A stretch of 55,008 nt of DNA from Bacteroidetes bacterium HGW-Bacteroidetes-8. GTDB taxonomy: Bacteria; Bacteroidota; Bacteroidia; Bacteroidales; UBA932. The stretch covers positions 1 through 55,008 of the forward strand of contig PHCZ01000010.1 of the NCBI GenBank assembly GCA_002840895.1, read 5' to 3'. Position 1 is the first letter of the stretch, and every line of letters begins with the position of its first letter. Below are positions 50,436 to 52,918 of this stretch, one piece after another. A program made the translations under genes and the position numbers. The notes under the pieces are model-generated. The model had not been told where the DNA came from. It worked only from the letters and a program-made list of their open reading frames with translations, and ran no database searches.

Positions 50436-51527
50436 ATGAAAAAGTTAAAAAAATATTTTACAATAACGCTATTATTTGCAGGGGCTCTTTTCATCTACTC
50501 CTGTACCGATGAGGTTAAAGAGAAAGAGATAGATTTCCCTAATGATATTACCTTCAATGAAGGACAAGGTATCAGCATAAATGTTCCTTGGCTTACTTTC
50601 GTGGTTCCGGATGCTCCCTATAAGGCTACCGCATATCACTATGGCGAAGTAACGATGAATGTTAAGAAGAATGCCAACGGTACTCACACAGGGTTTGCAC
50701 TTTCAAGCAAGAACTACCGCTCTTATCCGTGGCTCACAAGAAAACCTATCACCATTACCCCTTCTGCCTCTCAAATTAAAGAGGCTGTAGATAGCTCTAT
50801 CTACTCAGTCTACTCGGGAACATATCCAAACCAGTTGGGTACATTTACAGTTGTTAGGGTAGAGGGAGATGATGCATTCTTTTCAATCGACCAGCCGAGA
50901 GTTGTAGAGCACGTGATTGTAGCAAATACAAACTACAACTTCCAGCTTTTGAACTACGGCTCCAGGTACTCATCTAAACTTAATGCGACAACTCAGGTGT
51001 ACGATGAGTACAGCAGCGGAACAACTTTTGCAACTGTAAGAAATCCAAACATCCCGGATGCAAATACAACAAAATATGCTGTATGGTATCTCCCGGATAT
51101 CTACAATTTTGGTGGTGGTCAGGATTACATAAGACTTGCTGGTCAGCAGATTCTTCACAAGATCGCTGCAGGAAGAGCAGCAGGAACAGCTGCCAGATTA
51201 GCCGGCAAAACAAAGACTGAGGCGACAGCAGACTCTACAGCTGCATATACTGCAGCGGTCAAAGGTTATGTTAAGCTCATTGCAAAAGGTTATCTCAACT
51301 CAACCCTAACCGGAACATCTGAGTACTATATTGCACTCTTCCCTGGTGTTGCCCCTGCTCCACTTGATCTTTGGAACACTATCCAGGGTGCCTGGGCAAA
51401 GTGGGACCTAAGTTCATTAGGGCTGGTTAATAAAGTTGTATTCAATATGGATTCATCCGATAAAGATGGAACCGGAAAGATGAGAACTCCTCCATACTTC
51501 TGCCTGGATGGCATTAGGTTGAAATAG
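50436..51527 (+). CDS. DUF4465-like surface lipoprotein with Ala-rich insertion (locus D)
   Basis: The protein has 363 residues with the lipobox LFIYSCTDEVKEK. The C-terminal segment WAKWDLSSLGLVNKVVFNMD, then PPYFCLDGIRLK, matches the DUF4465 end pattern, and THTGFALSSKNYRSYPW fits the early part. Between them an Ala/Thr/Lys-rich helical stretch of about 45 residues (GRAAGTAARLAGKTKTEAT onward) looks inserted into the beta scaffold. DUF4465 proteins are surface ligand-binding proteins in Bacteroidota; the ligand here is unknown. ATG at 50436, 4 nt after the SusD stop, gives the best signal peptide. Confidence 0.7.
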   Translation: MKKLKKYFTITLLFAGALFIYSCTDEVKEKEIDFPNDITFNEGQGISINVPWLTFVVPDAPYKATAYHYGEVTMNVKKNANGTHTGFALSSKNYRSYPWLTRKPITITPSASQIKEAVDSSIYSVYSGTYPNQLGTFTVVRVEGDDAFFSIDQPRVVEHVIVANTNYNFQLLNYGSRYSSKLNATTQVYDEYSSGTTFATVRNPNIPDANTTKYAVWYLPDIYNFGGGQDYIRLAGQQILHKIAAGRAAGTAARLAGKTKTEATADSTAAYTAAVKGYVKLIAKGYLNSTLTGTSEYYIALFPGVAPAPLDLWNTIQGAWAKWDLSSLGLVNKVVFNMDSSDKDGTGKMRTPPYFCLDGIRLK

Positions 51528-51534
51528 TTATTAA

Positions 51535-51568
51535 AAAGAGGGTGATCAAATTAAAGGTCACCCTCTTT
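51535..51568 (+). terminator. Terminator of locus D core operon
   Basis: AAAGAGGGTGATC and GGTCACCCTCTTT pair over 13 positions (one G-U) around AAATTAAA. It starts 8 nt after the DUF4465-like stop. The following T content (CTCAAATTTTG) is moderate. Confidence 0.85.
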
Positions 51569-51590
51569 CTCAAATTTTGTAGACAATGAC

Positions 51591-51694
51591 AACTGATGTC
51601 GGTATCAGCTCGGAAAATCCTCCCTAACTGCGTTGGGTCCCCTCCCTCTTCTGGAGCCAATGTTTTCCTCAGCTGACACCGTAATCAGTTTTTT
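51591..51694 (+). ncRNA. Highly structured element, candidate sRNA or 5' leader, unknown family
   Basis: Pairing is layered. AACTGAT (51591-51597) pairs with ATCAGTT (51684-51690), CGGT with ACCG, TCAGCT with AGCTGA, and GGAAAA with TTTTCC, about 23 base pairs with small interruptions. An inner hairpin pairs TTGGGTCC (51633-51640) with GGAGCCAA (51653-51660) with one mismatch. CCTAAC-TGC-GTTGGG offers a competing stem. TTTTTT directly follows the outer 3' arm. The T-run fits the plus strand only. It lies in a 257-nt gap upstream of the FG-GAP gene and matches no riboswitch consensus I can recall. Confidence 0.55.
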
Positions 51695-51784
51695 ACAGTA
51701 TTATAACAAAATTTTTCGCCTTGACTTATGCGGTCAATTATGTTCATCCTCTTTTGATAAAAATTTTTAAATAAAAAAACAGTT

Positions 51785-52918
51785 ATGAAAAAATCGTTCA
51801 TTTTTGCAGCAATGGTAGTTGCGATTACTTCGCTCACATCCAATGTCTGCTTTTCACAGCTTCCCCAACTTGAGAAACCGTTTAGGGTTGAGGCTGCAGG
51901 TAAGGTGATTGATCTTACGGGTTCAGGTCATGCCGCTCCATATGTTTTTGACTTTAACGGGGATGGTAAAAAAGATATTATTATTGGTGAATTTAGCGCA
52001 CCTATGTCAAAAGAGTTGCAGGCAAAATATGATGCAATGAGCGAAGAGCAGAAAAAGGCATTTGTAAAACCATTTGGAGGTAAAGCCAGAATATACATCA
52101 ATAGTGGCAGCGATAAATCGCCGGTATTCGGTGATTATACATATCTGCAGGCCGGCGGTACGGATGCGGGTGTTCTTCCTTCGTGTTGTATAGGTTTTGA
52201 CCCCTTTTTTATGGACCTTGACGGCGATGGCACAAGAGATGTAACTTCGGGTGAATACTTTGGTGGGTTTATCCATTTTTACAAGGGAATAAAGGGGAAA
52301 CCGTTTGAATTTGAGGCTCCTGTTGATATTGCTCAGCCGGATACAATCCTCCTTTCAAAAAGAGGGATGAATAAGCTGATGCGTACTGCCAACTTTATAG
52401 ACTTTGATAAGGATGGCGACTATGATATGGTTTGGGGTAATGTTATGGGAGAGGTCTACTACTCACAAAACCTTGGAGATAAAAAGAGATATGAGTTTAG
52501 CAATTCCTCTCCGGTTACTATCAATGGGTTACCTCTATATACAGACGGGAAATCTGACCCACTCCCGGTAGATTGGGATGGCGACGGGATAGTGGACTTG
52601 CTGGTTGGAACTGAGGCTGCAGATATTATTTTTTACAAAGGCAAAGCTAAAGGTAGTATAGATTTCGAACAAGGTATATCCATATGGACATCAAGAGCAT
52701 ACCCGGGAGGTGCAAAACCATCCTATCTAAAGATCAAAGAGAGTATGGATGCCCTTGGAGCAAACAGACCGTATCCCGGCTACAGAGTTCGCCTTGGTGT
52801 AGTTGACTGGAATAACGACAACAAACTGGATCTGCTTGTAGGAAACACATTTGTAGTTGACGAGAAGGGTAAGAACAGCGATATTTCCGGAAATGTGTAT
52901 GTTTTTTTACGTAAATAA
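51785..52918 (+). CDS. Secreted FG-GAP/VCBS repeat protein
   Basis: The protein has 377 residues with a signal peptide ending NVCFSQ (about 25). Five calcium-binding FG-GAP-type motifs occur at about 56 (DFNGDGKKD), 144 (DLDGDGTRD), 207 (DFDKDGDYD), 263 (DWDGDGIVD) and 341 (DWNNDNKLD), predicting a beta-propeller. C134-C135 (PSCCIGFDP) lie in one loop. There is no lipobox, so it is periplasmic or released. It follows locus D after a terminator and the structured element. Propellers of this type bind proteins, glycans or metals; no enzyme motif is visible. Confidence 0.85.
   Translation: MKKSFIFAAMVVAITSLTSNVCFSQLPQLEKPFRVEAAGKVIDLTGSGHAAPYVFDFNGDGKKDIIIGEFSAPMSKELQAKYDAMSEEQKKAFVKPFGGKARIYINSGSDKSPVFGDYTYLQAGGTDAGVLPSCCIGFDPFFMDLDGDGTRDVTSGEYFGGFIHFYKGIKGKPFEFEAPVDIAQPDTILLSKRGMNKLMRTANFIDFDKDGDYDMVWGNVMGEVYYSQNLGDKKRYEFSNSSPVTINGLPLYTDGKSDPLPVDWDGDGIVDLLVGTEAADIIFYKGKAKGSIDFEQGISIWTSRAYPGGAKPSYLKIKESMDALGANRPYPGYRVRLGVVDWNNDNKLDLLVGNTFVVDEKGKNSDISGNVYVFLRK

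Follow-up and report, generated by a model that had tools for sequence, protein, structure and literature searches.

REPs and REPINs are the described systems that come closest to the element reported here. As set out in the portions of the literature cited, REPINs have a conserved REP at each end, with the spacer between them less conserved (PMC3116915), REPs bear a GTAG or CGTC tag at one of their ends (PMC3733652), and REP palindromes are targeted by IS110 elements (PMC11208160). For the Bacteroidales, Rfam holds a candidate structured RNA, Bacteroidales-1 (RF01693), as presented in the cited part of PMC2864571. How such palindromes change in place has been addressed in work on template switching, which between inverted repeats is reported to lead to arm homogenisation and spacer inversion (PMC8604942) and in RNA genes to multiple compensatory changes and loop inversions (PMC8794818). 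In the sections of these two papers drawn on here, the inversions concern spacers of a few bases, and a compensatory change together with a loop inversion is described as extremely rare (PMC8794818).

Here we describe the T-hairpin repeat, a copy of which lies in a 55,008-nucleotide stretch of a Bacteroidales draft genome (the window; the draft comprises 2.9 Mb in 22 contigs). Like REPs and REPINs, it is a short dispersed hairpin palindrome with compensatory changes, lies mostly between convergent genes and serves as the target of an IS110-type element. It differs from them in that its centre is conserved, where REPINs conserve two ends (PMC3116915, in the portion cited), in that it carries no GTAG or CGTC tag, and in that no copy lies in 20 fetched RAYT-like loci. 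In being structured and restricted within the order, it resembles candidates of the Bacteroidales-1 (RF01693) type; unlike the Bacteroidales RNAs in Rfam, the window copy matches no Rfam family at the gathering threshold. Our verdict is that the T-hairpin repeat belongs with the dispersed palindromes of the REP/MITE kind, as an inside-out variant.

Results

A structured segment that is one copy of a dispersed repeat

The segment at 51591–51694 had been proposed, in a sequence-only reading, as an undescribed structured RNA-like element with a long interrupted outer stem, positioned ahead of an FG-GAP gene. Folded as RNA it reaches -39.5 kcal/mol, compared with -19.9 ± 3.0 for 200 shuffled sequences (z -6.4), which bears out the structure, and the outer stem is present. 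The minus strand of the same segment folds as RNA at -41.5 (z -5.5), and as DNA it likewise gives z -5.5. A search of the segment against Rfam returned no family at or above the gathering score, and a known RNA family was therefore rejected; the three sub-threshold scores for a short stretch (19.7, 16.9 and 10.9 bits, where 45, 48 and 45 would be needed) appear to be chance matches. With no such match and with strong base-pair covariation, the reading as a structured element outside Rfam is supported, and no published description of the T-hairpin repeat was found among the listed titles and abstract openings of CC-licensed PMC papers.

When a 161-base query around the segment was searched against its own draft genome, 21 matches were obtained (E ≤ 0.001, itself included). 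Nine of them are near-complete copies; the others are fragments and, at contig ends, several half copies. The segment is therefore a dispersed repeat and not a unique regulator; a match to a repeat was among the outcomes that the sequence-only reading had named as speaking against its proposal. In all, the segment is a copy of a palindromic repeat that is dispersed and, in the samples searched, confined to one family of Bacteroidales.

Three sets of copies were used to characterise the repeat. Alignment A1 holds 38 genus copies found with blastn (9 from the own genome and 29 from relatives), and alignment A3 holds 44 diverse copies. The family-wide set was collected with a core pattern allowing two substitutions (233 matches, 226 loci, 163 unique copies) and, as deduced from locus numbers, took in 38 stretches beyond the 80 listed. 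The 163 unique copies supplied 156 for arm pairing, 161 for the H1 loop, 113 for placement, and 148 for T-runs and tags. Because this pattern is biased towards conserved cores and prescribes part of the H2 loop, statements about the H2 loop are based on A1.

Conserved centre, free arms

The folded strand is a T, with a long stem of free sequence capped by two small hairpins, H1 and H2 (Table 1). The core kept across genera is about 45 nt and runs TCCTCCCC-H1-GGGTCCCCTCCC-H2-GGGAGCCAA.G. The outer stem is 20–30 bp long, and its sequence varies among copies with complementarity kept. Within a copy, the arms share a median of 27 paired bases, and at least 15 are paired in 149 of 156 copies; between arms drawn from different copies the median is 6, and 15 or more pair in 82 of 1000 combinations.

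Table 1 Features of the window copy of the T-hairpin repeat, in window coordinates.
Feature	Position	Strand	Remarks
Conserved core, ~45 nt (linker, H1, linker, H2, linker)	51618..51662	minus	From alignments A1 and A3; loops and wobble pairs
H1 hairpin	51623..51637	minus	C-GNA-G triloop (GCA in the window copy); the "competing" stem of the sequence-only reading
H2 hairpin	51642..51656	minus	GAANA loop (GAAGA here); innermost pair mismatched in the window copy
Left arm of outer stem, copy-specific sequence	51591..51617		Pairs with right arm
Right arm of outer stem, copy-specific sequence	51663..51690		Pairs with left arm
IS110-type split point in other copies, at edge of H2 loop	51651..51653		Window copy unsplit
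Segment absent at the orthologous place in G016	51569..51735 (approximate)		Insertion here or loss there

The structure is paired in 91.0% of A1 cells, with 121 double-changed cells compared with 41.3 ± 4.8 after shuffling, a value reached in 0 of 500 shuffles. The diverse alignment gave the same picture (245 against 81.0 ± 8.3, reached in 0 of 500), while 75 of the 500 shuffles reached its number of pair types (53 versus 49.7). In A3, each of the 13 modelled arm pairs shows double-sided changes, and 11 of the 13 include all four Watson-Crick types. For H1 and H2 together, 24 double-changed cells were counted in the 38 copies of A1 versus 5.9 ± 1.8 shuffled, and the number of pairs with a double-sided change, two, is not above shuffles. 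One H1 pair is C-G in 21 copies, A-U in 12 and U-A in 5, and the innermost H2 pair is C-G in 30, A-U in 7 and other in 1.

These alignments also bear on the switch that had been read into the element, in which an inner TTGGGTCC/GGAGCCAA hairpin and a competing CCTAAC/GTTGGG stem were taken to exclude each other. The TTGGGTCC/GGAGCCAA hairpin is part of the minimum-energy fold of the window copy, yet no double-sided change was seen in it across the 38 copies, and its outer two pairs are unpaired in 26 and 15 of them, respectively. Because the middle of this stem consists of invariant or nearly invariant bases, it may still form in single copies. The CCTAAC/GTTGGG stem can pair; it is H1, which is conserved with compensation, and H2, a hairpin that had not been named, is conserved with compensation alongside it. 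In the aligned copies, the conserved fold is H1 plus H2. The idea of two mutually exclusive inner stems thus leans on a stem without covariation in 38 copies, where a riboswitch would be expected to have a conserved alternative stem.

Gain, loss and flips at orthologous loci

The relative G016 (84–87% identity at the window locus) has no element there; the missing segment, about 170 bp, is bounded by an imperfect 10–11 bp direct repeat, CA[CT]CCTCTTT. G016 also lacks the element at L006, where a similar AAAAAGAG/AAAAAGGAGAG pair could be made out by eye. At L004 the element is absent in both G008 and G016, and no direct-repeat pair was visible by eye. The empty L004 site keeps the GTTATTGAC motif, a half-arm motif that several copies have in their outer arms, and loss is for this reason as possible there as insertion. 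Flank comparison gave no clean empty site at L005, L008, L009 or L010.

Where flanks are orthologous, the core can differ in orientation. Over 42 pairs from 18 locus groups, 32 had the same orientation and 10 were flipped, with flips in 5 of the 18 groups; the 42 pairs are non-independent, and tandem copies occur in one group (L179/L261/L299). At L035/L065 the stem positions agree at 66.7%, and here two independent insertions could account for the difference instead of a flip. In 39 of the 42 pairs, 1096 stem positions were compared: 943 were identical, 103 had double-sided changes that preserve pairing, and 50 differed on one side, comprising 26 minus-strand G-U, 10 plus-strand G-U and 14 other changes. 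The element has been retained at L163/L230 and L170/L190, where flanks are 71–77% identical, which hints at retained function.

That the arms differ between copies yet stay paired, and that the core flips, can be put down to one process, template switching, of which core flips and mostly double-sided stem changes would be the two signatures. The flip seen here, at 45 nt, exceeds the few-base spacers of the template-switch cases in the cited sections of PMC8604942 and PMC8794818. Arm copying alone does not predict a wobble bias towards the minus strand, and this bias suggests additional selection on one strand.

Loops and wobble pairs favour the minus strand

Loop motifs and wobble pairs both favour the window minus strand, and the strand of the core was set to minus on these grounds. 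Read on that strand, the H1 loop is GNA in 89 and GNNA in 21 of 161 copies (110/161), whereas on the plus strand either form occurs in 1 of 161; the H2 loop is GAANA in 36 of the 38 A1 copies. GNA loops form very stable DNA mini-hairpins, and GNRNA-type pentaloops are found in RNA. Over all copies (4,484 stem pairs), G-U pairs would form only on the minus strand in 74 cases and only on the plus strand in 39, and when similar arms were collapsed, the minus-to-plus ratio lay between 1.5 and 2.6 to 1 over 15 samplings. The A1 count is 37 minus against 18 plus, with 15 of the 37 coming from one H1 pair; without that pair it is 22 against 18. These data favour the minus strand as the one under selection, whether as RNA or as single-stranded DNA.

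Placement among genes

By a crude ORF call, 15 of 113 flanked copies lie inside a long open frame, and one further copy has a gene on one side only; the other 97 were placed. Convergent genes surround 60 of these 97, and 2 of 97 sit in divergent gaps, compared with 12 convergent, 27 divergent and 35 tandem among the other gaps of 100–600 nt in the same loci. Orientation in tandem gaps shows no preference (20 << versus 15 >>). Within the genus set, 19 of 38 copies are convergent, and the tandem counts are reversed (5 << versus 8 >>). The 25 largest clusters of neighbouring proteins comprise at most 8 loci each and are largely orthologous; inspection of these clusters by eye found no gene family recurring beside non-orthologous cores and no transposase or mobile-looking gene.

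Runs of at least five T in 8 positions follow the right arm on the plus strand in 16 of 148 copies. A control position lying 40 nt beyond that has them in 18 of 148, and the minus-strand counts are 17 after the arm and 22 at the control. A terminator family was rejected on this evidence, as the T-run that would follow the GC-rich hairpin of an intrinsic terminator is enriched on neither strand across the 148 copies, and the T6 ending that had been taken for one in the window copy does not extend to the family. A local effect of the hairpin on the 3' ends of converging transcripts is possible as a side effect.

Around the window copy itself, the gene before the element (50439–51527) encodes a DUF4465 protein and follows a SusD-like gene, and the gene after it (51785–52918) carries FG-GAP repeats. 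A terminator scan of 51400–51900 gave no terminator-like site; its loop limit of 8 leaves out the operon hairpin at about 51536–51568, which by eye appears to be the upstream operon's own.

Taxonomic spread

With a split copy from the own genome as query, DNA similarity was found in 17 of 25 genus genomes and in none of 35 others. A covariance model built from genus copies (R1) matched 36 of 149 family genomes in 9 of 25 genera (E ≤ 0.01), and one built from diverse copies (R2) matched 43 of 199 family genomes in 8 of 25 genera (E ≤ 0.001). Order-wide sampling added 4 matching genomes of 393, all four within the host family, and phylum-wide sampling 1 of 395, the own genome. No match outside the host family was thus obtained in these order and phylum samples, in searches whose filters lose weak matches. 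The copies show covariation, and their neighbours are varied.

A pattern scan of public genomes recovered at least 118 stretches, and the core expression matched 78 of 80 among the matches listed. The titles among those listed name Bacteroidales, Bacteroidetes, Bacteroidia, Bacteroidaceae, Rikenellaceae or Candidatus genera, the last being Coprenecus, Cacconaster, Cryptobacteroides and Egerieousia, which we take to be members of the GTDB family UBA932. A plasmid or phage element was rejected: the window copy had no blastn match at E ≤ 0.01 in plasmid and phage collections, and the exact pattern had none in viral contigs.

An IS110-type element targets the repeat

Several contigs of the own genome end inside a copy of the repeat. 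These junctions split the copies at one place, with three left ends (C4, C20, C10) and four right ends (C17, C9, C20, C8), and an unsplit orthologue of one split copy is present in G008 (L106). Relatives contain an element with similar ends that encodes a 333-aa protein (DEDD_Tnp_IS110, Transposase_20) and lies at other targets. An IS110-type element is thus inserted in at least three or four own-genome copies at one fixed position, its ends alone being seen, at contig ends. The target of this element seems to differ between species, and the insertions into the repeat are possibly a natural bridge-RNA target system. As these ends reflect insertion into copies and not the repeat itself, an IS remnant was rejected.

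The contig ends with split copies are L011, L012, L013, L016, L017, L021 and L027. The related IS110-family elements at other targets, in species of the same genus, are L054:1640-3180 (G010), L060:1-1560 (G006) and the ends of L057 and L058 (G017).

Discussion

In the most likely reading, the T-hairpin repeat is a mobile palindrome that is non-autonomous and resembles REPs, with the difference that its conserved part is the centre. We consider it reasonably probable that the overall picture is that of a family-restricted palindromic repeat which spreads non-autonomously and whose arms co-evolve by template switching. Under this picture the repeat would be mobilised in trans as a non-autonomous unit, by an enzyme that would read the hairpin shape and the core on the window minus strand and not an end sequence. 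After insertion, template switching between the arms during replication would copy changes from arm to arm and would occasionally flip the core. Three null results count against this picture, namely that by eye no mobiliser candidate was seen beside non-orthologous cores among the 25 largest neighbour clusters, that 20 fetched Y1/RAYT-like loci contained no copy, and that no clean target-site duplication was found at the window site or at L004. We also propose, tentatively, that the element is specified by shape, in that an enzyme or an RNA-binding protein may recognise the strand-specific T-hairpin, of which the two-hairpin centre alone is fixed and the stem can be any pairing sequence.

The strand-specific loops and the minus-strand G-U excess would also be expected of a functional structured RNA family read from the minus strand, which would have spread by copying to numerous places and be maintained by selection for pairing in the RNA; it might, for example, act as a 3'-UTR element bound by a protein at its GNA and GAANA loops. 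The rarity of divergent gaps (2/97), as expected if transcription is needed, and the long retention at some orthologous loci fit such a family as well. The tandem gaps, with neither the 20-to-15 split nor the 5-to-8 split of the genus set giving a consistent orientation, argue against it, as do core flips at orthologous loci, gain or loss of copies between related species, and the low number of G-U pairs overall (39 + 74 among 4,484 stem pairs). We therefore regard a functional RNA as rather unlikely, if the strongest of the competitors to a mobile palindrome.

A further possibility is that the repeat is a REP or REPIN moved by the RAYT-like Y1 transposases of these genomes. Y1_Tnp matches occur in 22 of 25 genus genomes, two of them in the own genome, and by presence the RAYT-like genes of the genus are candidate mobilisers. 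Of the two own Y1/RAYT-like genes, the one at C14:31444 lies about 4.6 kb and the one at C4:38725 about 8.1 kb away from a copy, and neither is beside one. Compensatory changes are common in REPIN spacers (PMC3116915), and the splitting of copies by an IS110-type element parallels the insertion of IS621 in REPs (PMC11208160), in the parts of these sources cited. Against this stands the layout, which with its conserved centre and variable arms reverses that of REPINs as given in the cited portion of PMC3116915: 13 of 13 arm pairs vary, and the conserved part is the centre. In the 10 nt flanking the arms on the outside, 148 copies show no enrichment of tags (GTAG 6, CTAC 4, CGTC 2, GACG 10, with 7, 7, 11 and 13 at the control position), and copies do not flank RAYT genes, the core being present in 0 of 20 fetched Y1/RAYT-like loci (1.9–3.4 kb each; 20 of 50 listed, one own gene among them). 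In genomes of one contig, the nearest Y1-to-copy distance is about 83 kb (G010) and about 19 kb (G011), and G020, a genome 82% complete, has copies and no Y1 match. With this balance of evidence, we find mobilisation as a REP or REPIN by these transposases improbable.

Less probable still is an ordinary MITE, bounded by terminal inverted repeats and moved by a DDE transposase. MITEs and ERIC-like palindromes are non-coding dispersed palindromes of about 100 nt that are present or absent between species. In favour of this class are the inverted repeats around the core, the presence or absence of the T-hairpin repeat between related species, and the direct repeats at the window site, which are imperfect and about 10 bp long. 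Against it, neither a constant terminal inverted repeat nor a defined target duplication was found, and the arms evolve freely in place; the arm sequences differ between copies, where a MITE would keep ends in common with an autonomous element, and by eye no parent element with the same ends was seen beside the copies in the 25 largest neighbour clusters. The strong fold and the T-run of the window copy notwithstanding, control of the FG-GAP gene by a riboswitch, an attenuator or a terminator-borne sRNA can be dismissed with near certainty, as the element is a dispersed repeat with varied neighbours and flipping cores, is absent at the orthologous FG-GAP locus of G016, has no T-run enrichment across copies and no covariation in the proposed switch stem, and does not occupy the fixed 5' leader of a conserved gene set (60/97 convergent, 2/97 divergent); the repeat probably has no specific regulatory role for that gene.

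Two further classes offer comparisons of form. Integron attC sites were considered and set aside; with conserved ends and a variable centre, they are the reverse of the T-hairpin repeat. Parvoviral ITRs are T-shaped terminal hairpins with flip and flop forms, which the repeat resembles in shape only, through its long stem around two small hairpins and an inner part found in both orientations; unlike them, it is embedded between chromosomal genes.

If the reading as a mobile palindrome is true and the repeat does move by a shape rule, it would stand for mobile DNA of a class that lacks fixed ends and stays palindromic through template switching, and the question raised is what moves an element without conserved ends. 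The 163 distinct copies form a sizeable natural data set on palindrome evolution, in which arms co-evolve in place and spacers of about 45 nt flip between species, both as template-switch models predict. The case is also a warning that strong covariation alone is not proof of a regulatory RNA.

Further repeats and tandem copies were seen at some loci. Tandem pairs lie 119 bp apart at L261 and 121 bp apart at L205, and three weak copies in a row at G976:C5:68416, 68603 and 68789 are spaced by 186–187 bp. G119 has 18 copies with model R2, and a search for constant ends among these copies revealed none. The intergenic regions near them (L191–L195, L327–L331) hold further short repeats, such as CAGGTGAACCG motifs, and also a CCACAACGGCA...TGCCGTTGTGG hairpin. 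Finally, the ends of G000:C12 and G000:C11 (L014, L015) are near-identical over about 100 bases and show the right half of the repeat within a different inverted repeat (AGCTGCTCA); this shared end is perhaps the end of another multi-copy element.
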